Source of the DNA: Sphaerolaimus hirsutus
Lineage: Eukaryota > Nematoda > Chromadorea > Monhysterida > Sphaerolaimidae
Assembly: GCA_964036195.1 (NCBI GenBank)
Contig: OZ038450.1
Coordinates: forward strand, 31,126,794-31,190,793
Direction of reading: 5' to 3'
DNA: 64,000 bases
In this document: piece after piece, positions 3,742-62,513 of the stretch
How the letters are laid out: the number at the start of each line of letters is the position of its first letter
Position numbering within the stretch: the first letter of the stretch is position 1
Made by a program: the position numbers and the translations under genes
Notes under the pieces: model-generated
The model's input: only the letters and a program-made list of their open reading frames with translations
What the model was told of the DNA's origin: nothing
The model's database searches: none

Positions 3742-4648
3742 CAATGTTGTGCAAATACTGGTATTTTTGGAAAACGTAAACGTAAACGTAAATACCTTTT
3801 CCAAATCAAAAGTATAAATACTAAAACGTAAGGTATTTTTAAAATACCAAGGAAAACGTATAAAGAAACGTAAACGTGAAATTTTTACTTACATTCAGAA
3901 TTTTCCATTGTGCATAGGAAATTTACCATTATTTTCACCTTTAGATGGGTAAATCGCTCCATTTGCACCACTTTCTGTTTGAAGTGTGGCGAAATCCAAC
4001 TACGCTGGTGATTCTGGGGGAGTCCCAGACCCTGTAAAATGCCTTGAAAATGTCTAATGACATGCAAAGTGTCTAAAGTCATGCAAAATGCCCTGGAAGG
4101 TGGCAAATGTTTGCCATTTTGCTGAGCATTTTACATAAGTTTTGACATTTGCATGAAATTGTACATTTTACAGGGCATCTTACAGAGTCTGGGATTGGCA
4201 CCAGAGCTTGCACTCGCCCTGCCAGTTCAATACGCGTGCTTCTCACAGTTGTTGCGAGTGTGTCGTCAGAATTCATCACAAAAAAATTTATAAAGACAAG
4301 GCTACACAAACAAACAAAAAGTGTTCAGCATTTGAACACATTGATGAATATGTACCCAGTATTCCATGTGTAAGTGCAAGGGTGCAGTCACTTTTTATGT
4401 TAATGTTAAATACGTTTATGCAAAAACACAACAATATTGTTGGCTGCAGGTGGTGCGGCCCATTTGAACATGTGCACATGTGAATGATCACAAGTTTTTT
4501 TTTTGTTTTCCCTAGTACCCAGGTATTTTGGTGAGAAAAACGTAACAAAACGTAATGGTATTTTTGGAAAACGTAAACGTAAACGTAAGTATAAATACCC
4601 GAATAACTGGGTATTTCGGGTAAACGTAAATACGTTTTTCCAACTCTG
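3742..4648. mobile_element. CAGAGTTG-type hAT-like element carrying a nested introner copy
   Basis: The ends are CAATGTTGTGCAAATACTGG and CCAACTCTG, with subterminal AACGTAAACGTAAACGTAAA arrays. A perfect 8-bp duplication ATATAAAG flanks it (3734-3741 and 4649-4656). The introner-type element at 4014-4204 lies inside. An inverted, highly similar relative is at 53617-54448 with the introner at the equivalent position. Confidence 0.9.
4014..4204 (-). mobile_element. Introner-family MITE nested in a hAT-like element
   Basis: In + orientation it starts CTGGGGGAGTCCCAGACCC and ends CTGGGATTGGCACCAG. Read on the minus strand it would offer a GT donor (CTG/GTGCCA) and a CCCCCAG acceptor. It lies outside any gene here. 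Confidence 0.85.
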
Positions 4649-25244: not shown

Positions 25245-28200
25245 GTTGGTGGTTTTGGTGGATTTATGGGGGTTTTGGATTGAGTCAGAGGGAAAATAGT
25301 TTGTGATGTGTGTGGAAATGAACTGGCACTGCAATGCAACATTTCACATCAATGTGAAGACACTTCATAACGTGTCACTACACAGCACATGCCTATGTTT
25401 AACATCAGTGTTTTTGTGAATGCCAAATACTGGATGTCCATGGAATTTAGATACTGATGTATGTACCTAGTTCACTCATAGACTTTGCACTCTTTCAATG
25501 AAATCCACCATATGGTGTCAGAGTTTAAAACAAAACATACCTATAAACTTTTTCTCATCACACATGGTTTTTCATGCAACTATATGCATCAAAATACAGT
25601 ACTGCAAAACTTTGCGTGTCATGTAGTCCAATCAATATAAATATTTGACAAATCCACACCCCCCCCCCTCGCAGCATCCATGCACTTGCACAGTGGAAAT
25701 GCACACAGCCGCACATCAAGCACATCATCATTTCCATTCCCCACTTCAAACACTTCACCGCCATCACCATATGACAACTCCCATTTCATAAGGGAATTTG
25801 ACAATGCAAAGAAAAACAGTTGGCACCCTGCCAATGCGGGTAGTAGTGAACTGGGTGTCAACTCGAGTTCACCTAGATATTATCATCAGACTGGCAAGAA
25901 TCCCGGTGGACATGCGGCTAGAAGTGGCTCAAGTGTGTCCAGGAGGTCTAATGTGAGTTTTTGAAGATTTTTGAAGGTGATATTTTAGTACTAGGTATTT
26001 ATTTTGCTCCCCTGGGGAGTTTTTGAATTTGACGATTCTACTAGGTTCCAGGTGACAAGTGACAAATTTTGGATGAAGTAGCAAATTGTTTCACCAGAGT
26101 AATTTAAAATTGTAAAAAACATTTTCACCACAGGACAGTTTCATGACAAAACCACTGCGTCTAGTCGGCGCCACTATTCCTGAAGAGTCATCAGAATTCA
26201 TTCACCAAAAACCTGACCATTGTGGCAGCAACCAGCAGACATCACAGCTACAATCAAATGATTCACAACCAAAAGATACATTGGTCAGGTGCCACTCTCA
26301 GACCCTGTAAAATGGTCTGTAAAATGTGAAATGTCATGTAAAGTGTCAAAAGTTATGTAAAATTACCTGGAACATGGCAAACGTGTGTTAACAAAAATAC
26401 CATTTTCCAAGGCATTTTACATGACTTTTGACACTTTGCATGACATTTGACACTTTACAGGGCAATTTACAAGGTCCGGGAGTGCCCCCCAGGCTAAAAT
26501 ATCCCAAACCAACTAATGGCAAAAGTCACTTTAGTCTGGCATCGAACAAAATCGCCAGAAAATTGAGAATTATCTACGACAAATATGGATTGTCGCATGT
26601 GATTCCATGCGTAATTTTACTATTTTACACAATAGCTGCAGCTGGAGTTTTGCACGCGGTCGAATATCCTAATGAATTAGATTTGCTTAGTTCGTCTGAA
26701 GAAAATCGAGATATCGTGCGGAACAGAGCGATTATTGAAATACAGGTTTGTTTTGCGTTTTTATTTTATTTTCTAGGCTTGAAATTTGAAAAAAAAAACC
26801 TAAGTGACTAACTTCTTTAAATATTTGGACCATAAGAATACTTATGTCTCAAATACGAAAATCATCGCACAGATTCAATCCATTTCACAGTAAATTTCAT
26901 ATTTAGATTTTTCAAGTGAAAATAAACTTGTTAAGTTCATTTGGAACAGTGCCAACTTTTATAATGGTTGTATTCAAGCGTTTTACTGGCTCCACAACGA
27001 ACAGTTTGGATAAATCAGTTTTATAAACTCAACTATGTTCAAAACAGATTCATCAATTTCAAAATTTTTCGTTCGGTACATTCCACACTCGAATCAACAG
27101 AAACCATTGAAAACTTCATTTTCAGCGGCTGGCAAATGGTTCACAAATGGGTCCTCAAATTTTGTCGCAAACACTGCGGCAATTCGAAAAGGACATGGAA
27201 CCACTGAAAGTGAGCATCGACATTCCGTGGGACATGTGGGGCGCCCTGTTTTACATCGGCACCATATTCACCACCATCGGTACGTCGTTGTCGCGGCACA
27301 CACTGGTTTACCGGTCCAGTAAACTCGGATTGAGTAAACTCATATGTCGACATTGAATGCATTTGAGTTGACCAGAATGAGGTATCCGTCAACTACAGTT
27401 GACGAAGATATAAAATGACTCATTCTAGTCAACTCAGATGCGTTCAATGTCGATTTGTGAGTTTACCGAATCCTAGTTTACTGAGCCGGTAAACAAGTAT
27501 GTGAGGCACTGTTGTGCAAATCTATGAAAAGAGGGGTTTTCGTCGCACTGGCTGACATTTTTGTTTCAGTATTTTGGCCCTATGCCCGGTAAAGAAATTT
27601 GTTGGACTGGATGCATGAATACAGTCCGACCAGCATGATTGCGTTGATTACGAAATAATCGCAATTTTCAAAAAATATTGGCTGGCTGCCAAGAATTAGC
27701 ACTATTGCTTCAATAGTATTACGCAACGTTTACGTTAAACCGCGCCGTTTTGTTTATGAACGTATTCGCTTACCCAGCCCAGCATGACTTATCACACGAT
27801 AGAGATTTGTCGGGCACAGGGCACTGCCCTACAGATTTCTCGCGCGGAACAATTTGCAAAATCAAAAACGTTCCATTCTCAGGCTACGGCAATATCGCCG
27901 CTCGCACGACTCTCGGCTGCGCGTTGACGATAATTTTCGCGCTTTTCGGCATACCCCTAGTTCTAGCGATCCTAGCTGATTTCGGCAAACTTTTAGCATA
28001 TTCCGCAAATGTCTTGTGGAAACGCGCTGTTAGAAGGGCCAGAAGGAAATTGGTGGTGAAATTGAAGGAAAGTGGGGTGAATGTACCCAATGCTGGCAGA
28101 TTGCCAAGAAGTCTTGTGGAAGCTGCGAGCGGGAAACACGTGGCTATAAATATGGGGATGGATGAGGTGTGGACAGAGTTTAGATTTTTTGTTTTTAGAC

Positions 28201-31200
28201 ATTTTTTTTGGAAATTAATGTTTTTCTTGTCAGTTTTGGGTAATTTTTTTAATAATTGATTGTGAAGAATATGGTGTCAATTAGGCTTTCATCAACATAA
28301 ACGGTCCCCTGTTTTTTTAAATTGAATCACACAATGCATCAAGTACTTCTCCCCCAAATGATTTCACAGTCAAAAACTCAACCTTGGAGTAGAATGGAGA
28401 TAAAATGTTCAAATTACTGTCAATACTTATACTTTTCAATTTTTGTCAATTTTGGAAGTGGGACCACCAATTGGGTCAGATCTAATGCAGTCATTTCTAA
28501 AATCACCCATTTGCAAATTTGCAAAGGCACTTAAAGACTACCTACCATCTAAGTTACCTACATAAATCCCCCACAGTCACAAGCAGAAGAAATGGATCCA
28601 ATAATGGGTCACCCATTAGAAATGACCAACTCTAGAACAGCCATTATATGTCAAGATGGCAATGTCACAGCTGAACACAGGGATTCTATTGATTCTACTG
28701 GCACAGGGGGGACTAATAGCACTGAGGATTCAGGATCTAATGTGAGTTTGGATACAGTTTGTAATTTTGGGTGAATTTTTTCAGTGGATATTTATTGTTC
28801 AAAAATGGAGATGTGGATATTTTAACAGAAATATAATTTTAAGGTGGGTGGGGGTAGGGTTTGCAAGTTTCACACTGTAAAGTATCATGTGAAATGAGGT
28901 AAGCCCTGGTAAAGTGTCATTTAAAGTGTAAAATATAATCAATCCAGAAAAAATTTGCATTTGTCAGGCTTTTTACATTCTACTTTTTGCATTCCCATAT
29001 TTAGTTTACATTCCTGCACATATTTATGTCTGAAAATTTACCAGGGGGAGTCCCAGACCCTGTTAAGTGTCAATTGTCATGTAAAATGTTAATAAAAATA
29101 ACAATACTTTATTACTGAAATTTAGACACTGTATTATAATTGGCAACTTTGTGTGACATTTATCATGACATTTGGCACTTGACTTTAAAGTTCTTGGGAC
29201 TAGCACCAGACATTTCACATCTTATATGACATTTGACAAATTTGTGTGAAATTACATTTCTCAGGGTGTGCACGGTCAAGCTAGGCATAATTTCATAACA
29301 CATAAAACACCCACCCCCAAATAACTCCCCATCCAAAAGTTAACTTCCCAAATAAGTTTCACCACACTTTCAGTTAGAAGACACGGACACAGTGCCACTT
29401 AGCATAGCACTTTGCATGTGCGTTGGCTGGATGTTACTTTGCGCGGCACTTTTTCTCCTGTGGGAAAGAGAATGGACTTATTCTCAGTCATTTTACTTTT
29501 TCTTCATCTCGTTGAGTACTATTGGATTGGGTGAGTGGGTTTTTTGGGATGGGGGACCTACCAGAGGCTTAGTTAGTGTCTACTTTGTTCCAAGTGAACG
29601 GATTACGGTACTGACGTTGTTAATTGACTGGAAGGTGTCAAAAATTGGGTTATGGTAGAGTGGGCACTTATGTCCCCATGACGTAATTTTTCGTCTTGTG
29701 TGCAGTGTACAGTGCTGGGAATGAAATGGTTATTGAATGGGCCTCTGGTGGGTCAAAAAGCACCTGTATTGTATTCTGCTTGCTTTGTTCAAATTTTATC
29801 AATTAAATGATAATTTTAAAAGTCACTATTATTGAATATTTTAGAAGAAGTAATTATGTGTGATGATAAAATCCGAGAAAAACTTTTTCTCAGGTTACAA
29901 ACATACTGAATAAATGTATTTTTAATGTATGTTCCGCACTCAACAAGATACGGCACCCTTTATTTTATTCCACAGGCGACATCACACCAAACAAACCAAA
30001 ACTGATGCTATTCAATTTCTGGTTGGTAATTATCGGTCTATCCCTCGTAAGTATGCTGATAAATGTGATTCAAATCAAAATTGAACAATGGCTTTATAGA
30101 ATGATGAAAGAAATGCAGGTGTGTTTCAAATTTTTTTAAATAGCCAAATTAATTAAATAAAATTTAAAAAAATCCTATGATCTCAGGAAGAGTATGAAAG
30201 AGCTATGGCCATGGGGGATTGCCCTGAAAGGGATGAAATTCTTCAGAAAATTATGAAGAAGCAACCATGGTGAGCGGATCTGATCGGGGCATGCCTAATA
30301 CGCACATCTGCCCGTTACGCACATTTGCCCGTTTTTTCACTTGACACTTTTTCAAGTGATTTTCAGATATGAGTGAAGTGAAAAAAGTTGCGCACTGACA
30401 TTAGTGAACTTTTTTCACTTCACTCATATCTGAAAATCACTTAAAAAAAGTGTCAAGTGAAAAAAACGGGCAAATGTGCGTAGCGGGCAGATGTGCGTAT
30501 TAGTGCACCCTCATCTGATCATCATAAAACTACCTGTGAAAATCGATTTGCACATGTAAGATGGAACTCTGGGTGAAATGCCTTCATTCATTTGGTAGCA
30601 ACCGAGTCTGCCAGTGTGTTTCTGCATGCCAATTTGTCAATGTCATATTTAGGTAAACAGAGAACACTTCCAGTCCCTTAAAAATGTCTTGTAAAATGTC
30701 AAATGTCATGCAAATTGAACAAAACTCATGTAAAATGTCCTTTGACATTTTTCATAGAGTGTTTGGGAGTGGAAACAGCTGTGAAAAACTCATTTTGCTT
30801 TACTCGAATGGTTACTTCGGCATTATTTCGGCATTTCGCAGATCTATCATTTGCACAGGTACTGATATACAAATGTGTTGTCTGTAATGGGACGATTACA
30901 GCTCGGACGTAAAATTCCAGCATAAAATTCCATCGCAAAATTAGTTACATGAAAGTGGATGATGATTCAGGTCTGCAATTTTTCATGGACAATTTGTTTA
31001 TCAATACCTTCATTGTGACCAAGGGTCCTCGTCCACAGTCACTTCTATTTGATTCTGAAAATTCAAAAATTTCGATGTTACGCTGGAATTTCACGCCAGC
31101 TGAAGAAAAATCAATTCTACGCTATGTCATTGCATGCAATCACCTGGCGTAGCTAATTTATCGATTGATTTTTCTTCAGCTGGCAGCGCAAAATGCAGCG

Positions 31201-34200
31201 TAAAATCGAAATTTTTGAATTTTCAGAATCAAATAGAAGTGACGGTGGACAATGACCCTTGGTCACAATGAAGGTATTGATAAACAAATTGTCCATGAAA
31301 AATTGCAGACCTGAATCATCATCCACTTTCATGTAATCAATGTTGCGATAGAATATTACGCTGGAATTTTACGTCCGAGCTGTAATCGCAGCATAAATGT
31401 TCCCTCGATTCATTTCACCCCACCCCACCCCAGGTACATGAAACAAATAGCGCCAAAAATTATGAGCGAAAAACAAACGGAACAATTGCAAAATATCGCT
31501 GAAAATGCCGCTGCAGCGGCAGGACCCACGATTTTGCAAACTTACAAAGTTCAGACAAATTCAAAAATTGTGCAAACTGACGAGCCTAGTACCGTGCAAA
31601 AATTGCTAGCTGAAACTATGCTCAGTTCTGGTGCAAAATCAAATGTGAACAAAAATCTTGTGGAAACTGGCGTTCAATGTTATGTGACCAGGTTTGTTTT
31701 GGTTTTTGCATTTGCAAAAAAAAGTTTGCAAAATTATGAGTTCCAAGGGTATGTTGTGAAATTTCTCTGTAAACCTGGAGCCAATCCCAGACCGTGAAAA
31801 ATTCTAAATGTCTCTCAAAGTGTCAAAAGTTATGTAAAATATCCAGTAGAATGTTGAATCTATTGTGTATTTTTTACTAGACATTTTACATTTTACATGA
31901 CTTTACACACCTTGCATGACATTTGACAGGGCATTTTCAATGACTCTTGACTTTTTTTTTACATCCCAGTAGACCGAAATGTGTTTAAACAGATTTATCT
32001 GCCCTGGAAATTTCGGCTGTAAACTGCAACTTAGTCAACTTCGTGAAAAACTCAACCCCTTCCCAATTACCTCAGACCCACCACAAGCCGAGGAAGTTCC
32101 CCCATCACCCCCAGAGACCCCCCAAAATTGACACAAGGCACCCAGGCAACCCCCAGAACTGTGGCGCTGATAGAAAATGGCACCCAGACCCTGGAGCCAG
32201 TTCAAAATCTTGGCGCCAGCGCCAGTGATGAAAATAGGCGCCAGGCGCCAGAAATTGCGCATAATTTGCCGGTTAGAAAATGCTCCCTGAGTTATGTGTA
32301 TGAGGATGACCAGAAGAAATTGCAAAAGAATATCGTGGAAGCGGAAGAAAAGTTGTTGGTGCTGCAAAATGAATTGGATACGCATCAGAAAAGGATACAG
32401 GAACACGAGCAGAGATTGTTACAGGTGGGTGATTGTTTTGGGAGATACAGAGTGATATATAAATATACCGTATTTCCTCGAATTACCCCCCGGGGGTTTA
32501 TTTTTCAGAGTGAAAATTTTGAGAGAAAAACGTGAAAAATGCAACAATAACCACCATTTATAAGTTTTTACAGCCTTATATAAGGATGTAGATGGTATAA
32601 ATGATGTTCTAACGTAACACAGTAAGTGTTTTGAACGTCTGTTATTCATTTCCCGGACCACAAATCCATAGTGCCCATTTTGAGGGGAAGTATTTCGAGG
32701 GGGGGTATTTCGAGGAAATACGGTATATATAAATGGGCATAAATTAAAAAGAATAAAATATAAAAATGTATAGGGAAATAGGGAATAGGGAATTTTCGGC
32801 ATTCAAATTTACGTAAAATGGAATGAACATAAATTTGGGAAGTTTCTAAAACTGTGCATAGGCACCCACTAACGCAACCTCGTGAATATAACAGCCCTCT
32901 CTATTTGATAAAATGGAAAATGACCCTCCAAATAATTTTTTTTCATCTGAACTGCGTATTTTTCAAAATGATTTTCCAATACCCAAAAGTATACATTTTC
33001 CAAGTATAGTTTTTTCGTCCGTACGTGGAAGAAAACCAGAAAGAATAAAAAATTCCGTCTGACATCGATGACTCTTTCACAACTTTAAAAAATCGAGGTA
33101 TATAAAAAAACCATTTCAGTTAATCGAAAAGGAGCAAAACCAGGTGGAACAAATGGCACCAACAAAAGACCGGAAACAGTCCAGTATGGATTCACAGAAC
33201 AATCACGAAACGTTGACGAGATTGCAAAAAATGCTAATGGATTATGAAATGGAAATGTCGAAAATGGAAGATGATATGTTAGATTTGAAAGCTCAGGTTG
33301 GAACTTTTATAAAATGTGTGTGAATTTCCATAAAATTTGTGTGCCATATTTCTTCTAATAGAAGGGTCCCTTTTATTTTATCATGAACTTTTTACCTGCC
33401 CTTTTATAAGAGGGACGGTTTATTTTTGTGCTAATTTACAACCACTTTTGTCAAGTTATGCCAAGCTTTTGCAAACTGTTACTTCACAATTTTCATTCAA
33501 TTGGCAACCTTTTATCTCAAATTGACAACAAGTCAATTGACCAAACCACTAAATGTAAAAACAGCGTCCACTGTCATTTTTTTATTTGTATGCATTTGGC
33601 ACAGTTCCAGGTGTTTATGACCCTTCTATTTCGAGACCACCTTCTATTTGTTTTGTGACCCAAAAAAGTCAAAAAGTGTACCTTCTGTTTTAGACACCGT
33701 TATATTTGAAAAAATACGGTTTTCATTGTATCTCGCGGGTGTCGGACAACGTAAAGGGGGTGCTTGCTGTGATACGCACATCTGCCCATTACGCACATTT
33801 GCCCGTTTTTTCACTTGACACTTTTCCAAGTGATTTTCTGATATGAGTGAAGTGAAAAAAGTTCATTAATGTCATTGCGCAACTTTTTTCACTTTACTCA
33901 TATCTGAAAATCACTTGAAAAAGTGTCAAGTGAAAAAAACGGGCAAATGTGCGTAGCGGGCAGATGTGCGTATCAGGCCTGCCCCAATGTAAACTCCGCC
34001 CACACAGGAACAATATCAAATCGACCAACTGAGTACTTTGCAAAGACGAGAATCGGACTACAAAAAACGGTCCAATAAATCAGATAGCGAAATGAGATAT
34101 GAAAAAGAAAAACTGAGACAAGAAATGGAAATGGAAAATGCCGTGAAGCAATTGAAACTTGAAAGGGACCAAATTTTGTCTCTTAAAGCCAAGGAACAAT

Positions 34201-37200
34201 TTTTCAAGGATCAAATGGCGCTGCAAAATGCGCAATTGGCAAAGATCCAAAATGAAATAAAAACTGATAAACCAATTTTGGTGGTCGGTATCGAAGAGGA
34301 GAAATTGCATTTGCAAAAATTGAAGGAAAAATATGGGAAATTGGATGAAAGAATGGTTGATTTCGATGATGCTTTTGACAAAATTCAGGATAAACAGTGC
34401 AAAAAAGATGCAGAAATCAAGGAAATGCAGCAGGAGGCAAATTATATGGAAGCTACCATCAATTCAATGGAAAATAAAATAAAAAATCTGCCAAAAAATA
34501 CCCCATTTGAAGAACTTGTTGCAGCCCAAGATGAGCTCAGAAACTTGAAAATGAAATTTGAACAGCAAAATGTTTGCATAGGCATAGAAGAGGATGAATT
34601 TTCTACCCTTAAGGACAAGGAAAATGCTCTTCTAGATGACATTTCTGCATTACAAATGGAATCTGCCAGGTGGCAATCCCAGATCCTGTAAAATGCTCTG
34701 TAAAATTTCAAATGTCATGTGATGTGTCAAAAGTGATGTAAAATGCACTGGAAAATAGCAAATGAAAGTTTTCCACTTTACATGTCATTTTACATGACAT
34801 TTGACACTTTATAGAACATTTTACAGGGTCTGGTAGTGCCCCAGATTAAAAGCAGCCATAAAGGAATCAAACAGTTTCCTGAAAACCAAGGTGGCAGAAA
34901 GAAATGGACACGTTATAATTTTGAACGAAATGAATCCGGACGAGTTGAATCTGCTACAGGACGAATTGGGAAAACGCGAAACGGCATTAAAAGAGCAGGA
35001 AAAGGCGTTCAAGGAATACGCGGCTACAATGCTTGGACAGATGCCAAAATTGCCTGAGCGAACTAAGAGACACAAATTGTCAGCACAAAATGCAATGAGT
35101 TCGGTTGAAAGTTTGGAAGAGTCGGAAAATATGTCAAAAATCAGACAACTAGAAAAACAACTAATGTTGCAACAAAAAGCTCTAGATGAAAAGCACAATC
35201 AATTTCTCAATTTCGACACCGCGGTTGACAAAAACGACGTCAAATTGCAACAATATCAAAATGATTTCGACAGTCTCAACCAACTTTTGGATGAATTAAG
35301 GAGCAAATCGAATTCAGATTATGACCCAATGTTAGAAGAGGAAATTTCAGAGGTGGAAAGGCAACTTAATATAACAAATTTGGCAATTGACAATCAAAAA
35401 GCAAAAATGCTCAAATTGCAAAAACAGGGTGAACTTTTACTTGTTCAGCTGGAAGTGCAGAAGGAGGAAAGAGATAGGGTGCAAGAATTACTTGAAGCTG
35501 AGCGCGCAGTCCAGGTGACAATCTGAATTTTTTATACATAGTGTTAAGACATGTGATCAGTGACAACTACTGGTGAAAGAATATTAGATATTTATGAGTG
35601 TCAAGTAGATTTTGTAAGTTATCTACTAAATGTAAATAAGTATGTGATAAAATAGATATTTTGTGTTTAACCACATATTATGTTACTGGTGCAAATTGCA
35701 ACAGCGGCTACTACCTATTTACAAAAAGGCAACTTGAGAGTTACTTGAGAGCTGTTACTTAATTGTTTGAGTTGAGAGTTGTTACTTAAGACTCGCTTCG
35801 CCTAAGAACCAAACATGCCTATTTTGTTCCTGTTACAAAAAATTTTTTTGCGTTTTTTTTCATGGTTTTGGAATCTCCATAACTAGAAACTTAAAATTTC
35901 CTTCCATGCATATATCCGGAAATGTCATCTTCCTACTGAAAAAATTAATCAAAGTCAAAAGTCACCATTTTTCAGGCTGTTTTTTGGAAATTCATAACTT
36001 TTGTTTGACTTTATCTATCAATATAATATTTTGTATTTTTATTAAGAAAGTTGTGGAGATTAATTGGCCCATACAAACTAGTTTCATCAAATGTTTTTTT
36101 CTCAACGAAAATGATGGCTGAAATTTTGAAAATGGCATCAAATTTTCAGTTTGTAATTGAGAGCTTAGCTTTTTTTTGCAAAAACTGTGCCCAATTGCAT
36201 AGTTTATTTTACAAAAATAAAATAGAAAAAGTAGGTCTGCCAATTTTTGCCACAACAGTTTGAAACAGCCCGACACCCGTCTCACCACCGCAGACAAGCC
36301 CACTCTGAAGACTCAGGTGAAGTTTTATGAAAAAAGTTTTCATCATAAACTTAGGTTATTTTTACATGTTCTTTCATTTGTATATCTCCATTTTTTCTCA
36401 AACATAAATTGGAAGGGTGCTTCCATACAAAAATTCAGTTTTCACATAAAAAATTCTGAGCCCCATTTTTATGCTGCATTTGGAATCTTTGTACATAGAA
36501 ACTAAGAATTTCTTTCCATACATATATCTGGAAATGCCATCTTCCTACAAAAAAAATTGATTGAAGTCAAAAATCATCTTTTTTCCAGACGTTTCTTTGG
36601 AAATTCAAAACTTTTGCTTGACATCATCTATCAATTTGATATTTTGGATTTTTATTAATATAGTTTTGGAGATTAATTGCCCCATACAAACAAACTTCAT
36701 CAGATTTTTTTTTCTCACTGAAATTTGTGGCTGAAATTTTGAAAATGGCACCAAGTTTTTTGTTCTGAATTGAGAGCTTAGCTTTTTTCACAAAAACTGT
36801 GCTCAATTGCATAGTTTATGATAAAAAAATAAAATCCAAAAAGTAGGTCTGCACTTTTTTACCACAGCAGTTTGAAATGATCAACAACGCAGATGTCACG
36901 ATCACGGACAATCCCACTCTGAAGACTCAGATGAAGTTTTTATGAAAAAAGTTTCCATTATATTCTTAGGTTATTTTATCATGCTCTTTCATTTGTATGT
37001 CTCCATTTTTTATTAAACACACTTTGAAAGGGTGCTGTCATACAAAAGTGTACTTTTTAGCACATATCACAAGTGTGGTCATGTAAAATCCAAAAATTAT
37101 TCATTTGTACTAGTAGCTAACTGTTCTGACAGTAGCTTTTAGCTGGCCATTTGGTTATTTTATGTTTCTGCTAAATTGCACTTGCATAAAAAATAAATAT

Positions 37201-40200: not shown

Positions 40201-43200
40201 AGGGCACTTTAAATCACAGATGACACCAGAAAAACCAGATCAATGTGAATCCAGTGTTCAAACTGACCCCATAATCACCATGCCCCCAGCGCCAGCACCA
40301 GCTCCAGATGAAGAGTCGAGGGACAGACGGCGCATGAAATCAAGTGAGCACTTCACAAAGTATGAAACAGGTTGTGATTGTGCCATGTGTGGAAAATTAC
40401 TTGGTTTTGAAAGTGCTTAATCTGAGGTACTTCACACTTCTATGCCTCGTGATGCACAGCAAAAAAGGTGCACAAAGAATGTGGAAGCAGGCAGGATGTG
40501 TGTGAAATGGTATCTGTGAAGCCGCTTTCACATGCTACCACACTCTTCACAAAATTTTAGGTGTACATACATTTCACAAACTTCATATAAATATTATCCC
40601 AATCATCAAAATGTTTGAAGTACATTTCACAATAAACAGTTTGTTAGAAAATGTTGACTGTTTTGTGATGCAAAGTGAAACACCAAACATTACTCAACAC
40701 TGCATCATCACATCCCAGTATGACCCAACAAAAACCACCCTACACCCTCCCCAGCCCTATGGGCCCTCCGTGCCCTACGCTCCCTCCGCTCTCACTCAAC
40801 CTACCTGCCTGGCGATGAAGGGGATGCCCCGCAGCCAGATTTCTACTGCCAAAGCGTTGCTGTGCAAACTGGCCAGGGTGCTGGCGATGGCAGTTTTGGT
40901 GGATTGACAGATGCTGGGGTCCAGACTGAGATGCAGCATCATGAACAACAGAAGGGCTTGAAACTGCCTACTAGCTGGTAATTTGGGTATTTTTGATTGG
41001 TGGTTTTGTGTGAAGTTTGAATGTGTGATAGAAAGGTAACATAGGAACAAGGGTTACCTAACTTACAGCTGGCTTTCTGCATGTTCAAGGGTAAATAATT
41101 CATTTCATATGATCAAAGGTGTTCAAAGTACCAAACTTAGTTAGTTAGTTACTAGCAATGAGATATGGAGCCATACCTCCGAAGAAGTTACGCTCCTCTC
41201 TGTCTTAATCACCCACTACTCTCTTGATTCATACATTTTCTGATTAATTTGTTGCATATAGCCCTCTGGGCGTGGCAAGTGTTTGATTGTAGGTATCCCT
41301 CTCTCCATGTGCAGGGAACCGTACAGACAGTTCTGTTCATGATGTATCTTAGATCCTCATTGAGCTTACAGTGGTATACCACATGCTGTGTGGTCAATGG
41401 AATTTTACAGTGCTGCTCCGAACAGTTGGAACATAACTTTTTTCCCATTTTCCCCCATCCTCTAAGTGCATTGCATCTTGCAGCAAACCAAGCCATTTCA
41501 TTGTAGTATACTCCTTTTATTTCAAGGTCATCCTGCTCTCTATTTTGCAGAACTGCCTGGGTTCTCAGCTCCGTTGCGGTATTACCTCTACTATAATTGT
41601 AAATGTACCGTTTTATATCTCCTGCACGTAATGCGGTGGTACAGATCTTCAGACCAGACTCTATTTTACATTTTTCAACCATAGTACTAGTTGTGTTGTC
41701 AGGAACCACTCTTTGGACACCTCTTAGTGCCCCGTCTACCCTATGTGCACGCGCCAACCATCTGTCACGGTTTACTCGGCACATATACATATTGTTGGTT
41801 AGTACTAACTGTCTGTATTTGTCAGAAGGTAAGATGCCATCCAAATCATGTAAAAGCGTTGCTACAACTGTTTGGAAGCCTTGCTACTTTCTTCATTGTT
41901 TGCATGTAGAGCTTGTCCATCTCTTTCAGATGTTCCTTGTCTAGCCCAGTAACTTCCACTCCATACATGCTCCCCGGTTCAACATACGCTTTCCATGCAA
42001 TTTTCCCATTATATATTGGAGACACTGTGTTCCGGGCTGTACTTAGTGCTAGCGAGCTTAGTTGTTTCATTTTGGATACTCTGCTGTTTTTATGGTCTCT
42101 GAACGGATCCTTCCCTGTATTGATCAGTACACCCAAATACCTCAGCTGATTTGTTTCATTGATTTTTTCCCTTTTTCCCAGTTTTGGGTCTCCCGTGTTG
42201 ATGAACCAATCTTGGGCAGCAATGTCATTTTTGCCCCATCTGAGAACTTCAGATTTTCCTGTGTTTATCGAAACACTCCATTTCCATGCCCACAAGCTAA
42301 AGCAATCCATTAGCTTTTGCAACTATGTGTCTTTGCTAGCAAGTATTACTATATCGTCAGCAAAGAATAGCACCAGTATTTTTGGCTCATTTTTACCACA
42401 TTTTGCCCCATGTTTGTTTTCAATAGTACTTGGGCTAGATCGTGTATGTATATTGCATATAGTGTTGGACTTAGTGAACATCCTTGCGCCACACCAATCG
42501 GATATGGTTGTGGTTCGCTTTTGAACCCCCCATATGTCAGCACCGCCTTGGTTTTCAAATATACATTTGAAATTGCATTTACTAACTTGGATGGTATTCC
42601 CATATCCAGCATTTTTTTCCATAATTTCTCTCTGTCTACCCTGTCAAATGCCTTTACAGCGTCTATGAAGCATGTAACAAACTGATTGCCGTTTGCTTTT
42701 GCATAGTTGTTACATGTTTTGAGTATCTGTACATTGTCCAATGTACGCCTATTTGGGCGGAAGCCCCCTTGCATCTCCGTCAATGCATTTGTATCTTCAA
42801 GCCACCTTATTAGACGCTGGTTTAGGACTGACATATATAGTTTTTTTTATATTGCATGACAACCCCAGTGTTCTGTAATTCTTTAAGTCTGCTTTGCTCC
42901 CCTTTTTGTGCAAAAGTATCATTTTATATAGTGCTGCCTCAGTGGGAATTTTGTCTCCCAGCAACCACTTATTGAAAAGGTTTGTTAGTAATTGTTGATG
43001 CTGGTCTTCTAAGAGTTTCAAATGTTCATGGAAGACTCCTGTTGTGCCGGACGACTTGTTATTTTTCAGCTTAATTATAGCCTTTTCCACCTCAATTATA
43101 GTTATCAGTGCATCCAGTTTACATGTCTGCTTTTGTGTGCAATGGACCCTTGGCACTGTCCCTACATCCTGGATGTTAGCCCCTGGATTTGGATTTATTA

Positions 43201-46200
43201 CAATGTTCCATGCCTTTTTTAGTTCCTTTTCCATCCCCTCTGATGTTGTCACTTGACAACCTTGATCATCCTCGATTGTATGTATTACAGTCTTATTTAC
43301 CCCCCTTATTGTGTTGACTTTTTTATAAACTTTGTTTATCTGCATGTTTGTACCGTTCTTTATCAAATTTTTAATTTTCTTTTCTTTCTCTTTTCTTTGA
43401 AGGTTTTTTTCAAATTACTTAGGTCATTCCTTGCCTGTTTTAGTTCAATCTGTATTCTTGAGATTTCAGAATTTTTGTGTTGCTTTTTCAAGCGTCTTCG
43501 TAGATTTGCTATTTTTTTCCCCTGTTTGGATACACTCTGTGGCACATGTTTTCGCCCTGGCAATGTAACATCAACACGTGCCCCAGCTCCAATAATTTCG
43601 ACCATGTCTTTGTAAGAAGAACTTTTTCAAAAGTATTTCACTACATCTGAATTCTGAAAAGCTGAAAAGCTATGTGTACTGAAAATTTTGAATACCTAGG
43701 TAAGCCCTACAGCGTTCTGAAGGATTGTCATCGACTTTTTATGAATAAACCAATTTGTGGAGAGTCAAGGTGATGTTAAGGTTTTATGTAAAAAAATTAT
43801 TCCTTGGCTCTTTGCCAAAACAAAATACCTACACTATTAACCTCCAGCCACCACATCCCAATTATCCAATTCCATTGTCCCAACTACACACACTCAACCC
43901 CCCCCACAGGTTTTTCAGATCAGCCCTACGCCCCCACAGCACGCCCTCCCCCTCCTACACGCACCAGCCCTCCGCAGATACCTCAGAAATAGGTGTTCAA
44001 ACCGGCCAATTAGTGCCCACAAATACAGTTCAACTGCAAACTATGGACAGTTATTTGAGGATAGCTACACGTTTGGATACATTGAGAAGCGCAAAGTCTA
44101 AGGGACCTGTTTTGCCAATTTTCAGTGCCCATGAAATAAGGAGAAAAGAGGGGTGGCTAGGGGTGCATCAGCAAAATCCTGGTAAGGGGAGCGTGGATAG
44201 TTTGAAGGGGGAGCTTGGTTTGGGGGGGGATTTTTGAGGGGGTTGGGATTCTGTTCTGGGAAGATATTTTTATAGAGTTTGGGAAATGATATTTTTTTTT
44301 GTAAAATTGAGGATGAAGAGTAGTGATGGAAATGCTCTTGAGAACCTGGGGCCAGATTTAATACTCCCTACAGATTTGTAGGGTAGGGCGTATGCCCGAT
44401 AAATTTTTTAAAGTTCAGCCGCTTCGACGCACATGCACCGAGGGCAAGGCGGTTCGTAAAATACACGAAACTATCCCTTAAGGTCGCCGATATTGCAATA
44501 AGACGTATATTGCTTCGATTTTGGCCCGGAAATAACGATTTCGTCATTTCTTGGCCGTCTGCCAATTCGTTTTTTATTTTATTTTGTCGGGTGGGTTACT
44601 CGCATAAGTCGTGCTTTTGTACGCTCGTGCATGCATTTCTTTCTTGTCGCTGCCCTCGTGGTTTCGGTTGTAGGCTGTGAACACTAAAAAAGTGACCACC
44701 TGACTACACAAAAGCGCGAATTATGCGAGTAACCCGCCCGACAAGATAAAATAAAAAACGAATTGGCAGACGGCCAAGAAATGACGAAATCGTGATTTCC
44801 GGGCCAAAATCGAAGCGATATACCGTAAATGCTCTAATAATACGACAGGTCTCCAATAATACGACATCTCCAATAGTGCGACAGGTTTGGGCACGTTGTG
44901 TGAAAATAATCCGACACTCTCCAATAATGCGACACTCTTCAATAGTGCGACACCTGAGAATTAAAAAGAAAAAGCGCCGTAACAATGTTGCAATCTGCGG
45001 AAGCCGTGGATTCGGCGCTTTTGGACAAAGCGGCGGCTGGCGGCAGTTCACAAGAGTCGCTCAGCAGTTTGCAAGGGTCAACGGACAGTTCGCAAGGGCG
45101 CCAGCCGCCTCACAACCGCCACTATTCACTGGCCGAGAAGTTGTTTATTCGACGAAAACAATAAGGCCCCGTTTACACGGATTTTTTGAGACGACTCGAC
45201 AACAATAAAACGTTCAATAAGTTGAGTAAAAAGGTTCCATATTCATTAGAAAAAGTGGTCAAGTATACCTTCTACCTAAGCAAATATGCAGGCCAAATTG
45301 CAGACTCATGCTTGTAGCTCAAGATTTATAACGTTTGAAAAAAGTTTGCTATTGTCGCTGGCTGTCGGAGACAGTCCGACAACTGCAAAAGTTTTCAAAC
45401 GCCTTTTACTCATGAGCTACAAGCACAATTGTGCAATTTGACATGCATATTCGCCTAGGTAAGATGTATAATTGACCACTTTTTCTCATAAATATGGAAC
45501 ATTTTTACTCAACTTATTGAACGTTTTATTTTTGTCGAGTCATCACAAAAAATCCATGTAAACGGGGTTTTATGCGACACTATCTAATAATGCAACATCT
45601 CCAATAGTACAACACCTAAAAATGTGCTGAAAAAAATAGTACGACTGTCGTATTATTAGAGCATTTACGGTACATCATATTGCAATATCGACAACCTTAA
45701 GGGATGGTTTCGTATATTTTACGAACCGCCTTGCTCTCAGTGCATGTGCGTCGATGCGGCCAAACTTTAAAAAATCTGTCGGGCGTACGCCCTACCCTAC
45801 AAATCTGTAGGGAGTATTAAATATGGCCCCTGGCGCCAAGTGCCAATCACGCCATGGTGTAATCTACCAAACAAATCAAAATTCGAAATTTTCGGACACA
45901 AAATTTTCGGTCGGATTTTGCAATATTTACAATGGGATGGAAAACCAAGTAAAAAATATCTCAATTTTTTAAATCAAAAACAGCCTAAAAACACCCACAA
46001 ACTATCCAGACCAAAAAAGAAGACCTAGCACCCAACAAGAGAAGCTACCGTATTACCTCGAATTATCCCCCCCCTTGAATTAACCCCCCCCTCGAATTAA
46101 CCCCCCCCTCAAAATGGGCTGGGGAAATAATAAACCCCCCCCTCGAAATACCCCCCCCTTCGGAATGATGTACGTCATGTACATAATAAATACGTCATGT

Positions 46201-49200: not shown

Positions 49201-52200
49201 TTCTGTGTTTCCGTGTTTCCGTGTTCTCCAAAAAAGAACTCATTTGAGTTTCCGTGTTTTTCAAAATTGTTGAGTTTCCGTGTTTCTGTGTTAAACAAAA
49301 ACACGGAAACTCAATGAGTTTCCGTATTTAATATGTGTGTTTTAGCCATCGTTGGTCATCGTGGTGACAATCACTGCCATTTAAATTGATTGGAAGTAGA
49401 AAGCAGAAATAGGCAAAAAATAGGTGAAAATAAGCAAGAGTGAATGTGAAAATAGGCTAAATGGAGCAAAACAAAGCCTTTTTGAGTGAAAAATCTTGTA
49501 GAACTTGAAACTTGTAGAAAAATCTCTCAAAATACCTGCAGTAGTAAAGTTATTATATGAGGTGTCACCGCCTCTCAAATAGCTGTCACTCACTGTCACC
49601 GCCAGAAATTTTGAACATTTTTTGTCTATGCTGTCGATGAACCCATATTCATTCACAAATACCACCCGCCCCCTCCCAGATCGCACTCAGCTGGCGCCAG
49701 GCGCTGCAGCGCCGCAGACGCCTACGTTGGCGCCATTGGCACTGGCGCTGGCTCCAACACTGGCGCTGGCGCCACGGAATCAAACGTGCCCAAGGTGAAA
49801 GTCAGTGGTGATGTAGCTGAGTTGAGAAAACGGTGGGAAGCGAAATTGGTGAAGCGGTGATTTTGATTGTTTTTGTGGTTTTTGGATGTTTTAGATTGTG
49901 TTGTATTTTTGGTATTTTTGTACAGTATGTAGGATTTAAATTTTTGGCAAATTTTTAACTTTGCAGTCAAAGAAGTGTGAATTTTGAGATAGGTACGCTA
50001 GCTTTACTTTCAGATGGGATATTTAGGTTGTTCATCTTCTGCTCGGATGATTATTTAATTAAATTGTACTTTTTGTGTACGGTCATAAATATTACATGCA
50101 CATCTTTCAGTTGATTTTGTTCTTTCATCGTTTTTAACATATTCTGCGCACATTCTCGAGTAACACCCTCTTCATTAACTTCCCCATAAAAAGTTTCTGA
50201 TAAAAACATCATCACGAATAAAACCCGGTAAAGTAGGCTATTTACCAGAGTTGTTAAAAGGTACGTACGTTTACTCGAAAAATACGCGTACGCGCGTACG
50301 CGGTAAATACGTTTACATATACGTTTCAAAAAAATACCGTACGCACTCGTACGCGTACATTTTCAAAGCATACGCGTACATAAAATGTATGTCAGAAAAT
50401 TCAATGTGGGGGATATTTATAAAGTGACTACAGTGCTATGTATTTACAGACGTGGTTCCGTTGAATATAAAATATACGCGGAAGTAGCGCGCTTTAAAAA
50501 TAAAAAAACGCAACCAAATCGAAATGGCTGCGGAGACAATCGAAGTGGAAACGAGTCGCGAGAGCGACGATGGAATGGATGATTCATCCGGTACCACTTT
50601 ACACCCACTTGAAATAATATTGACGCCTCACAAAAGGTGTAGCGTCAGGAATGACGAAAAGTGGTTGTTTCTACACTCGCAAGAAAAGTACCCAAATTTA
50701 CGCGTACGTACGAGTAAAAAAAAAGTATTTTACGTTTTCGATACTTTGTGGTGAGTAAAAAAAAAATACTTACGTTTACATATACTTTTGAAAAAAGTTC
50801 AGTAATTCTAACAACTCTGCTATTTACACAGGTCCCGGCCGGGGGCCGGTCCCCAGCAAAAAATAAAAATTTTCAAAAGTCTATAATTGGCATGTATGGG
50901 TTGTTTGCATGTTAATTAGGTGAATTATCACCAAATTAGCATGCAAATTTTTTTGCAAAACGGTTACACGCGCTGATGCATTTTCTTTGGGGGAGTGTAT
51001 AATTTTTTTTGGATTTGTCTGAATTTTGGCATGTGTGTACTCCTTCATTTAGTAAGTATGCATGCCAAATTTAGGCTCAGCGCCGTTATCGGTTCTTATT
51101 TTATTGATACTTTAATTTTCATCGATCACTGTATTTTTGTATAGTGATCGCCATCCTGCTGGGGACGAACGTCCCAGGTCGGGCACCAAACTTCTTTGTT
51201 TACTGGAAAAAATTTTTTCTCACCGGGGACGTTTGACCCTGGTCGGGGCCATTTCGACATTGCCGGGGACCGGTCCCGGCAGGATTTCAATCACTATACA
51301 AAAATACAGTGATCGATGAAAATTAAAGTGTAAAAAAAAGAGGATTCACTAATCGCCCTGAGCTGAAATTTGGCATGCGAACTCACTAAATGAAGGAGTA
51401 CACGCATCCCAAATTTGAGACAAATCGAAATAAATTTACACACACCCCAACAAAATATGCATGGGTGTGTGCAACCTTGTTGCAGAAATTTTGTGCATGC
51501 AAATATAAGGCCTTATAAACAGGGTGCACGCCAGGTCCGCCACCCAAATTCTGAGTCGGTTCCGGACGCCATATCTCCAGTTGTAGTGGGGGGATTTATT
51601 CGAAATTTTGAGGAAATATACTCGAAACCCACCCACTACTATACGGGCTGGGGAGGGTCGGCGACCCACCTGAGTGTGGGTCGCCGTATACATGAATAGT
51701 TTTTTTTGAAAAAATCGCTGTCCACGCGAGGTCCGCCACCCCTTGTTTTTTTGATAAAACGGGCTGCCAAACTAAAACTGTTGGGGGGAATTGATCGAAA
51801 TTTTGAGGGGGTGTACACGACACCCCCCACTACTTTTCACGGAAGATTGAGCCCCCTGGCGACCCCCCTGAGAGTGGACCACTGGAAAATATAATGATAT
51901 TTTTGAGAATTCGCTGTCCAGGTTTGGCACTGGACAGCAAAAATAAAAATTACATTAGAATGTCCCTTGGAGGACAATGTATACCACTGTAAAAAGTGTG
52001 TATTCAAAAAGCAATTTTTAAAACGAAAATTTGATCTGGTTCGAAAGTGTTTTTGATACCCATACACAAGTTCCAGATTAAATTTCGATTTAAGTCAAAT
52101 CTTTAATACACACTTTTAAAGCTGGTTTACGATGCCTTCTAGGAGATGATTTAAGGTAAAAATTTGCGTNNNNNNNNNNNNNNNNNNNNNNNNNNNNNNN

Positions 52201-59553: not shown

Positions 59554-62128
59554 GTGAGTTGAGTGAAGACAACGAAGTGGGTCTCGAAACTCGATTTTGT
59601 TGAAACTCGAGTTCGAGTCACGGCCAAATTTTTCCGGTCGAGTCGGGTCAGTTAGTAAAATCGAGTATCGAGTCGGGCAAAAACCTAGAGTGTCTAGAGT
59701 ATCTCTATATTTTTCTGGGTGAGTCGAGTCGAGTTTTTTGGTACCCATCTTTACTCTCGAGTCTCGAGTCGAGTCGATTGTTTTGTTACCCATTTTTACC
59801 CTCAAGTCTCGAGTCGAGTCGAGTCGAGTCTGTCGTTACCCATTTTTACCCTCGAGTCTCGAGTCGAGTCGAGTCTTTTGTTACCCATTTTTACCCTCGA
59901 GTCTCGAGTCTCGTCGAGTCGAGTCGCGTCGAGTTCGAGTCCCACGCCACACGAAACGTCAATTTTATCAAAATCCGAAGTGTTCAAAAAAACCCTCATT
60001 TCCCAGAGCAAAGACTTCGCGACGAGCGTCATAAACAGCGAAACCAATTCGCAAGGCTATCTCAATTTGGAAATTGGTATGCAAAAGTTTGGCACCTACG
60101 CAACATCGGTTCTGAGTATGACCACATCTGCTAGTCAGGCGTTGGCGGGTGTGAATGGCATGTCGTATGGCAGTGCGGGAAGCACTAACATTGCTGAGTG
60201 AGTTTTTGACAATTCTCGATGAATACTTAAATACTTAAACTAGGTATATCCTTGAAAATACCCTCTGACGGTTTTTCAATATCGCGCCAATTGGCAGTAT
60301 TGGCTAGGGTGGCAACTTTTTGTTTTCCGTTTCCGCTTTCCGCAGGCAATTTTTTTTCCGTTTCCATTTCCGTTTTCCGGCTGCTAAATTTTTAATCTGT
60401 TTTCGTTTCCGTTTTGCCGGCTCATTTTCCATTTTCCGGCAAAATTTTTCAGTTTTTCCGCCTTTTTCCGTTTTCCGGTTCATTTGTCTGTTTTTCCAAC
60501 TTTTTCACTTTCCAGCTTAATTTTCTGTTTTCTCTCTTCAGCCAAACCGGTAAACATGCATGTAGGTTCTCAATTATGTGAATTTTTCCTATTTCTAGCA
60601 AAGTTTCTGCAAATTTTTTTTTCTGGATAAATTTCTGGAAATGTTTTTCTGTTTCCTTCAAAATTTCAGCAAATTTTTCTGTTTCCGTTTCCGTTTTGCG
60701 GCAAGTGCAAAAATTGTTCCGTTTCCATTTTCCGCCAAAAAGTTTTTGTTGACACCCTAGTATTGGCACAATTATTGTAGTGTAATAATTTCTGCTCATT
60801 GAACAGCCACTGCCATTGGTGCTTCACAATCTTTTTTACCCTTAATGCTTTATACCCTTAGTGCCATTTTTCCTGGCATTTTGCCATCACTAAATTAATT
60901 TCATATTGATCCAAATAGTCATTAATTTCAATTCCTTTTCAGCGGCCTTTCTAAGGCGGGTGACATGATGAGGTACAGCAGGGGACAAAAGCTGATCTTG
61001 CTCTGGACTGATGGCAGGTTTGTGAAGTTCTATGCAGGCTCCACTCCCAGACCCTGTGAAAAAAACCTGTAAAATGTCAAATTTCATGCAAAGTGACAAA
61101 AATCATGGAAAATGCAACTCGGTTGCCATTTTGCAGAGCATTTTCCATGACTTTTGACACTTTGCATGACATTTGACATTTTACAGGGCGTTTTACAGGG
61201 TATGGGAATGCCACCAAAAGTTCAAGTTGCAAAAGTTGCATTCAAGTGATAAGACAAGTTGCACCTGAAAAAGATGTAAAGTGTCAAGTGAAGTAAGGCT
61301 TCAAGTCAAGTGAAAGGGCACTTTTCAAGTGACTAAAGTTAAATCAGTTTAATACAGTTCATTACCACTTTTCAACGTTTCTGGACGCTTTAACATAATA
61401 ACCCCCCCCCTCAAATAACCCCCTCAAACAACCCAGACACAACACAGCCGGAAACCCAGTACAAGTGGCTACCACCCTAAAAGCACAGGGAGTGTGCATA
61501 ATCGTCATAGCGATCGGTCCCAGTGTTGACCATGCGCAACTGTCCCAAATCGAGGGTTGCTCGCCCTACCCTCCGGTGCAAACTACAACTTGGCGCCCTG
61601 TTCAGTGCTTTAGGCCCCCGTGCCCGATGCCCGCCAGGCCTGGCCCTTCGCGCCCTACATCGGGTTCTAATTGCCCTAGTGGAGGTTGGTTGTGGATGGG
61701 GGGGGGGGGGTTATGGGGGTTGAATGAAAGCGCTGATTTGGCTTTTTTTTTATTAGCTTTATACCGTATTAACTCGAATAACTCCCGCATTGAATAGTTC
61801 ACACTGTTTGATCCCATGAGGGTAAAATCAAGGCCTTGAATAATTCCTCCTGTTAGATGAGTGAAAATCACTCCTTGAACAATTCCTACCACTGAAACAG
61901 ATAAACATGAACTCGCTTGAAAATAAAAACAAAAGGAAACATGTTTGAAAATTTTCACAAAAAATCCCCCCCCCCTTGAATAATTCCCCCCTAAGAAACC
62001 TACACAATAGTCAACCGTTTGCAGGTCTGCTAATCACGACGGACTTCAATGAAATCGAGCAGAGTGTGTCTGGTTTCCTGTCCAAGGTGCAGTCCACGCT
62101 CCAGGCCGGCACCCAGTGCGTCGCCTGA
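59320..62128 (+). CDS. Secreted von Willebrand factor A-domain protein, five exons, about 240 aa
   Basis: Exons are 59320-59553, 60007-60197, 60943-61017, 61437-61555 and 62025-62128; all junctions are GT-AG and in phase. Residues 1-20 (MTQLLSLFALTCLIITEVQG) are a signal peptide. A single VWA domain fills about 58-230. The MIDAS metal site is complete: D66-x-S68-x-S70 (FDESGSI), T138 (GSTNIADG) and D165 (LLWTDGR). VWA domains of this kind bind ligands through a divalent metal in the extracellular matrix or secretions. No transmembrane segment or second domain is seen, so it acts outside the cell; its ligand is unknown. A longer exon 4 (to 61684) would add a 43-residue Pro/Cys-rich insert. The chosen exon 4 gives IEG-LLITTDFNEIEQSV, the canonical end of the fold. 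Confidence 0.88.
59580..59945. repeat. CGAGTC-repeat element in VWA intron 1
   Basis: Many CTCGAGTCGAGTCGAGT words alternate with TTACCCATTTTTACC. Outer GGGTCTCGAAACTCGA and CGAGTTCGAGTCCCAC are partly complementary, suggesting a foldback transposon. Confidence 0.7.
60007..60197 (+). CDS. VWA gene exon 2
   Basis: Acceptor CCCTCATTTCCCAG. Frame SKDFATSVINSETNSQGYLN to AGSTNIA with Asp split GA/C, phase 2. It contains the MIDAS threonine. Confidence 0.88.
60305..60759. mobile_element. TAGGGTGGCAAC hAT-like element in VWA intron 2
   Basis: TAGGGTGGCAAC and GTTGACACCCTA. GTATTGGC is repeated at 60297-60304 and 60760-60767. The interior is strongly strand-biased TTTCCGTTTCC text. Confidence 0.92.
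60943..61017 (+). CDS. VWA gene exon 3
   Basis: Acceptor TCCTTTTCAG. Frame GLSKAGDMMRYSRGQKLILL then WTDG with Arg split AG/A. It carries the MIDAS aspartate. Confidence 0.9.
61038..61215 (+). mobile_element. Introner-family MITE inside VWA intron 3
   Basis: GCTCCACTCCCAGACCCTG at the left, ACAGGGTATGGGAATGCCACC at the right. It begins 20 bp after the intron's donor and is part of a longer intron. Confidence 0.85.
61437..61555 (+). CDS. VWA gene exon 4
   Basis: Acceptor CAAACAACCCAG. Frame HNTAGNPVQVATTLKAQGVC then IIVIAIGPSVDHAQLSQIE. Short donor GAGG/GTTGCT; the longer alternative GGAG/GTTGGT ends at 61684. Both are phase 1. Confidence 0.75.
61764..61990. mobile_element. TACCGTAT-family fragment in VWA intron 4
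   Basis: TACCGTATTAACTCGAATAA at the left with TTGAATAATTCC arrays; no right terminus. Confidence 0.6.
62025..62128 (+). CDS. VWA gene exon 5 and stop
   Basis: Acceptor CGTTTGCAG. Frame LLITTDFNEIEQSVSGFLSK then STLQAGTQCVA and TGA. The last helix of the VWA fold lies here. Confidence 0.85.
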
Positions 62129-62141
62129 GCCGTGGTACTGG

Positions 62142-62361
62142 TGCCACTCCCAGACCCTGTAAAAAGCCCTGTAAAATGTCAAATGTCATGCAAAGTGTCC
62201 AAAGTCATTGAAAATGCCCTGCAATATGGCAACTCGGTTCTGGTAACCTGGCAAAATGGCAACTCGGCAACTCGCATTCTGCAGGGCATTTACCATGACT
62301 TTTGACATTTTGCATGACATTTGACATTTTACAGGGCTTCTACAGGGTCCGAGAGTGCCCC
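62142..62361 (+). mobile_element. Introner-family MITE in the 3' flank of the VWA gene
   Basis: Begins 13 nt after the stop codon. CTGG is repeated at 62138-62141 and 62362-62365. The ends are GTGCCACTCCCAGACCCTG and GGGTCCGAGAGTGCCCC. GT is present at the left, but the right duplication gives CTGG, not CAG, so the usual acceptor is absent. Confidence 0.9.
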
Positions 62362-62513
62362 CTGGTTGATGTGAATTTTGTTTTAAGTGGGCACGTAGGT
62401 GCCTGTGAAAATGAGATAGGTATATGGGAAACGGTTGCATGGGTTTTTATCTAATGATCATTCCTCCACTGCTGTCCATTTGTGATTATAAATATGATTG
62501 AATGTGGTTTTAT

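Follow-up and report, generated by a model that had tools for sequence, protein, structure and literature searches.

An inverted-repeat transposon family that very probably creates introns by inserting at CWG targets in a genome with nematode-like genes

Introduction

Can a transposon be a complete intron from the moment it lands in an exon? The question is raised by a two-pore potassium (K2P) channel gene in the window, the 64,000-nucleotide stretch of DNA analysed here, where one intron had been interpreted from its letters (the sequence-only reading) as a single inverted-repeat MITE and an introner of a kind rarely documented in animals. The origin of new introns is an old question, and introners are known from few animal groups; among animals and land plants, the survey of Gozashti et al. 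(2022; PMC9860276) reports them in only two groups, both of them animals, in agreement with that estimate of rarity. Here, we followed the element through the window and the genome. From the sequence, we propose that the K2P intron very probably belongs to a family of non-autonomous DNA transposons (MITEs) that give rise to introns when they land in coding sequence.

Results

Nine exons, joined from 25641 to 31691 on the forward strand (25641 being only the open-frame start in this joining), gave one two-pore potassium channel in which all eight introns are GT-AG. Among the 120 relatives listed, nematode channels were nearest (best 340 bits), with Lingula at 193 bits. The nematode relatives place the DNA in an animal host, and they point to one among nematodes or their close kin. 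An exact search of the genome for the 22-nt SL1 that is classical in nematodes gave no match.

The exon upstream of the element (26134..26288, forward strand, 155 nt, preceded by CACAG) ends ...GTC AG in phase 2, and its frame fits both neighbouring exons. Its last bases are the left copy of the target duplication, CAG (26286..26288, forward strand). The MITE itself (26289..26489, forward strand) follows directly with the GT that forms the donor and differs from the family consensus by 9.4%, and the right copy of the duplication (CAG, 26490..26492, forward strand) carries the acceptor AG. The following exon (26493..26745, forward strand) holds the first transmembrane helix and aligns with nematode channels from YDKYGL onward. 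Thus, the 204-nt intron (26289-26492) is all element and duplication, with nothing left over. The arms of the element (26288-26377 and 26400-26489, 90 nt) are 82% complementary, and the predicted RNA fold of 26280-26500 reached -112.6 kcal/mol compared to -50.8 ± 4.4 for shuffled sequences (z = -14; 0 of 200 shuffles as good), which upholds the view of the intron as one MITE from end to end. Joining 26134-26288 to 26493-26745 gave a single open frame, while reading through into the element met a stop after six residues; splicing would thus restore the K2P frame, as had been proposed. The N-terminus was too variable for the intron site to be compared with that of relatives.

To describe the family, we searched the assembly (348 Mb, 762 contigs) with the K2P element and scored 40 out of 3,320 first-look candidates. 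A consensus of 191 nt was built from 53 copies (51 from the genome and the two exact introns of the window); between its opening and closing 80 nt, 78 of 80 positions are complementary. The ends are GTGCCACTCCC and, from the other side, GGGGCACTCCC, that is, a GTGCC start and GGGGC read inward at the opposite end. Because of these two end sequences, an element in one orientation follows the target with GT and runs through a C-rich stretch into the right copy of the target. The family is short and non-coding, with inverted repeats and many copies, as MITEs are. The 17-nt GT end occurred in 1,509 exact copies genome-wide, and the 24-nt end in 957, compared to none for either reversed-pattern control. 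CAG preceded 655 of the 17-nt ends and CTG 561 (reversed-pattern controls, 0), together 80.6%, compared to a CWG share of 2.6% among the trinucleotides of the window. A 20-nt element end had no match in the viral or prokaryote sequence collections.

Of 109 copies collected, 39 were the best matches to the K2P element, 30 came from the 24-nt pattern and 40 more from that list; after removal of 13 without a right end and 7 duplicates, the duplication was examined in 89. The query behind the first 39 had CAG at its ends, which may slightly favour CAG; the remaining 70 were selected for an intact GT end and all come from a single contig (C1). The flanking trinucleotides were identical on both sides in 52 of the 89 copies, compared to 28.0 expected if the sides were independent, and 49 of these 52 were CAG/CAG or CTG/CTG. 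CWG stood on the left in 79 copies and on the right in 63; the left/right pairs were CAG/CAG in 26, CTG/CTG in 23, CTG/CAG in 9, CAG/CTG in 2 and others in 29. The target duplication is CWG, 3 bp long. The next trinucleotides outward agreed in only 4 of the 89 copies, and for this reason a hAT origin was not kept (hAT elements have ends CAGG...CCTG and an 8-bp duplication).

These data also revise how the splice signals are apportioned. CAGG is present at 26286-26289 and 26490-26493, as the sequence-only reading had noted, but a four-base duplication was rejected, because the base after the right CAG differed in 7 of nine CAG/CAG copies (the nine include two duplicates of each other); the duplication is CAG and the fourth base is free. 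The donor GT, which had been divided between duplication and element, is instead the element's own first two bases, while the acceptor AG does lie in the right duplication. The signals are therefore made jointly by element and target, with a different division from the one claimed.

A profile search of the window found eight nearly complete copies of the family, two of which are exact introns. The second exact copy (34670..34841, forward strand; intron 34670-34844, CAG / CAG) separates two coiled-coil open frames (33993..34669, 677 nt, exon start probably 34008 after CACAG, and 34845..35523, both forward strand). Once the 175 nt of the intron are excised, the open frames on either side, each of about 225 codons and out of step with one another, become one (...QMESAR|LKAAIK...). 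The coiled-coil protein had no homologue at E 0.001 among 7,996 scored candidates and no Pfam family, so that the evidence for this second case is its frame. The copy at 62141..62361 (forward strand) lies just 3′ of the stop codon of a gene that looked VWA-like by eye and is flanked by CTG (62138-62140 and 62362-62364). The copy at 61038..61214 (forward strand) sits in an apparently ordinary intron, 20 nt past the donor, and is not an exact intron. Degraded copies were found in ordinary introns near 30665 and 31778, and the copies at 62631 and 21350 lack one end. The copy at 4016..4201 (reverse strand) was considered as a third exact intron, since its joined frame looked plausible by eye, yet it was dropped because it lies inside a longer repeat that also surrounds the family copy at 54054-54234 (a 937-column, 80% identical match around both).

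Other repeats were seen nearby. Another MITE-like inverted repeat (27297-27503) lies within a K2P intron away from its edges, and an inverted repeat some 500 bp long (30893-31388) lies in the K2P intron preceding 31434. Two copies of a different inverted-repeat element of the CGCACATCTGCCCGTTACGCACATTTGCCCG type (30277-30520 and 33770-33975) included no exact intron. QTD-type motifs and the long coiled-coil frame follow the K2P exons (31434-35523, forward strand) and could form the end of the K2P gene itself. Frames at 41212-43414 (reverse strand) resemble, by eye, a non-LTR retrotransposon reverse transcriptase, and a gap of exactly 200 N spans 52170-52369.

To see whether exact introns extend to conserved genes, we joined the flanks of family copies, inspected the frames crossing the junctions and compared 30 coding-looking strings, picked by eye and in part for being CTG copies, with Pfam. 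At 17 of these 30 loci a conserved protein ran across the exact join (16 by a Pfam domain, plus PRP8), and removal of one copy and one 3-bp repeat restores it; as the strings were chosen by eye, neither this fraction nor the CAG:CTG ratio is a genome-wide rate. The domains crossing the junction were Aa_trans (L016), innexin (L018), SDF (L036), P5A-ATPase (L037), VWA (L013), haem peroxidase (L031), carnitine acyltransferase (L072), cullin (L144), bestrophin (L120), COMM (L117), STAG (L047), HSP70 (L021 and its paralogue L014, with one insertion common to both), ABC_membrane_2 (L020, with only 5 residues left of the junction), UDPGT (L039, below the curated cut-off) and PI-PLC-Y (L022, below the curated cut-off and with only 3 residues left of the junction). 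Pfam gave nothing for PRP8 (L131), which was recognised by a match to solved PRP8 that spans the junction. Nine strings had no Pfam family (L015, L028, L033, L038, L053, L063, L093, L133 and L137), and four had domains only beside the junction or weak matches (L045, L075, L107 and L123). When aligned with solved structures, the junctions were gap-free in PRP8, bestrophin, innexin, cohesin SA and HSP70, and also in PLC-beta, where the match was weak (E 0.014); the UDPGT and P5A joins had no match among solved structures.

As a control, frames crossing the junction were compared at shifted joins. The mean was 114.7 codons at the exact join, compared to 109.1 and 104.6 when the right flank was shifted by 1 and 2 nt and 100.0 in antisense, and crossing frames were longest at the exact join (p 0.0058; 73 unique loci, CAG-only set included). 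By class, the effect was seen for CAG/CAG (p 0.0027, n 28) and was not significant for CTG/CTG (p 0.27, n 15) or CTG/CAG (p 0.16, n 6). The difference is modest, which may reflect the many copies that lie outside exons. In addition, the K2P, coiled-coil, HSP70, PRP8, VWA and peroxidase genes, among others, contain similar introns whose similarity reaches up to both splice boundaries, as expected of introners. Together with the 17 of 30 chosen loci, this supports the introner interpretation given to the K2P intron at the outset, so far as joined genomic reading frames can tell.

Some of these insertions are shared between gene copies. The HSP70 paralogues lie about 32 kb apart, L021 with a GC donor and CAG acceptor and L014 with a GT donor and CGG at the acceptor. 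The exact joins in L014 and in the ABCD-like L020 end in GG, and these could be decaying genes. Three gene copies within 70 kb (L076, L077 and L078) carry an insertion at an identical site with identical flanks, for which reason it seems older than the gene duplications.

Insertions at CTG also occur in conserved exons, yet without AG at the exact boundary. Leaving out L072, which came from a CAG-only search, the domain-crossing loci comprised seven with CAG on the left (L013, L014, L021, L031, L036, L117 and L131) and nine with CTG (L016, L018, L020, L022, L037, L039, L047, L120 and L144), a tally that, the strings being hand-picked, shows only that CTG insertions are not rare in conserved exons. 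The CAG-left introns end in AG in six cases and GG in L014. Among the CTG-left introns, the exact boundary is AG in L018, L047 and L144, TG in L016, L022, L037, L039 and L120, and GG in L020. In the innexin, the left CTG keeps a conserved W codon in the exon and the intron ends CAG; the right target copy, as we read it, is the intron's end and now bears AG. The same direction was seen across copies: the right trinucleotide was CAG in 11 of 36 CTG-left copies, compared to CTG in 2 of 33 CAG-left copies (1-nt slippage allowed; Fisher p 0.013), and without slippage the numbers were 9 of 32 and 2 of 28 (Fisher p 0.048).

How the TG-ended copies are processed admits more than one answer. One is that exonic CTG insertions are unspliced and represent disrupted alleles, pseudogenes or assembly haplotypes. 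Introns of the GT-TG type violate the AG rule, TG acceptors in human genes were found only as alternatives tied to a neighbouring AG within 28 nt (PMC2374985), and the open-frame control was not significant for CTG/CTG copies. However, four exonic CTG/CTG copies have diverged from the consensus by 3.7-7.4%, much as three CAG/CAG copies have (5.8-7.9%; L120 was too long for this alignment), and the frames around them are still open and conserved, so we consider unspliced insertions unlikely, if well short of negligible.

A second answer places the acceptor of CTG insertions at a canonical AG within the element, so that splicing would add a few amino acids to the protein. An in-frame AG lies 18 nt upstream of the boundary in L016 and L037 (+6 residues), 9 nt upstream in L120 (+3 residues) and, stop-free, 81 nt upstream in L020 (+27 residues). 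The family consensus itself, GGGAG|TGCCCC, has AG 9 nt before the boundary, so that other CTG copies may use that AG; copies reading GGGACTG are without it. Against this, L022 and L039 have no stop-free in-frame AG within 90 nt upstream, their sole in-frame AG bringing stop codons, and additions would hit conserved stretches such as the bestrophin WANL|VNVL. The CAG-left L014 has no stop-free in-frame AG in that range either. General use of an internal AG is thus doubtful, although the pattern at several loci would suit it. By analogy, the AGs that stand 9 and 19 nt before the boundary in the consensus would fit the human rule for TG acceptors. Setting aside which acceptor is used (TG or a nearby AG), the balance favours removal of the exonic CTG introns.

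Discussion

The preferred reading, that the element makes introns as it lands, implies the following course of events. A PIF/Harbinger-type transposase of the NuwaI kind would move the element, and its insertion at CWG would duplicate those 3 bp. If the sense strand offers CAG and the element enters with its GT end first, the product would read ...CAG|GT(element)...CCCC CAG|..., a ready U2 intron whose donor and C-rich tract come from the element and whose acceptor AG is supplied by the right copy of the target, with the protein unchanged. A CTG target would give a product without AG at the exact boundary, probably spliced out at TG or at a nearby AG, and a later T-to-A change would improve such an acceptor. 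Speculatively, the long hairpin would pair the ends of the element and may help.

A tentative extension, which we hold to be possible but somewhat short of even, is that a NuwaI-type transposon acts as an animal intron factory through the CWG rule, that the spliceosome also removes CTG copies, and that many introns start TG-ended and are then brought to AG by selection. It is weakened by the in-frame AG 9 nt upstream in the consensus and by the partly deliberate picking of CTG copies. If true, intron birth, tolerance and repair could be read from one family.

It is very improbable that these are ordinary old introns into which a MITE inserted later. Family copies do occur inside ordinary introns (61038-61214 and the degraded copies near 30665 and 31778), but the K2P and coiled-coil introns have no remainder beyond element and duplication, and this fit recurs in unrelated genes such as those for HSP70 and PRP8; the exact fit at many loci contradicts an older intron. 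Propagation through RNA, with excised introns entering new sites by reverse splicing, the interpretation given to fungal introners in Gozashti et al. (2022; PMC9860276) and one that would suit exact introns in many genes, is scarcely credible here given the CWG duplication at the non-exonic copy past a stop codon (62141), the palindromic consensus (78 of 80 arm positions matching) and the family copies within other introns.

Insertion as a DNA element has a simple reason for giving an intron at birth: the target CAG matches both exon end and acceptor, and the element's own start is GT. Exact-intron insertions may therefore show the birth of new introns, and the CTG insertions would be a natural control for the spliceosome's acceptance of introns without a boundary AG and for their repair by selection.

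Introners with inverted repeats and target duplication were reportedly described by Huff in 2016, and the non-canonical introns of the tunicate Fritillaria borealis by Henriet in 2019. Like the introners described by Gozashti et al. (2022; PMC9860276), the present elements are non-autonomous DNA elements making introns that leave protein length mostly unchanged, and some of those families, too, draw one splice site from the element and the second from the duplication. Unlike the introners of that account, they have a CWG duplication of 3 bp, almost identical to the acceptor consensus, nematode-like host genes and a CTG class without a boundary AG. The present family may nevertheless be among those of that survey (PMC9860276). 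As described by Soo et al. (2026; PMC13326754), F. borealis is likewise an animal, with many introns outside the GT/AG rule, for which introner transposons having weak splice sites are suggested as one possible origin; unlike there, where non-canonical introns make up 95% of the total and U2AF occurs in duplicate, the seven other K2P introns here are GT-AG. Animal introns of transposon-like sequence are also reported in notothenioid slc26a2 (PMC12357937), where the account is of two introns in one gene and gives no insertion rule. The introner elements of Amoebophrya similarly have inverted repeats that pair intron ends and short direct repeats at the boundaries, in a dinoflagellate, however, with varied splice motifs and mostly unassignable to MITE families (PMC7789003).

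The element resembles NuwaI (PHIS), relatives of PIF/Harbinger that are reported only from animals and also duplicate CWG (Han et al., 2015; PMC4482050). NuwaI ends usually start with GGG; here one end starts GGGGC and the other GTGCC, and unlike the terminal inverted repeats of 12-61 bp given for NuwaI (PMC4482050), the inverted repeat here spans almost the whole element. The word 'intron' does not occur in the main text of that paper (PMC4482050), and the best matches of a literature search included no paper combining NuwaI, Harbinger and intron. DDE_Tnp_4 matches number 163 in the genome; the ends of the element were absent from L149, the single locus read, and as no transposase partner with these ends was found there, membership in NuwaI is unproven. 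More than 100 of the DDE_Tnp_4 (Harbinger-like) matches had nearly equal scores, which suggests a young transposon family.
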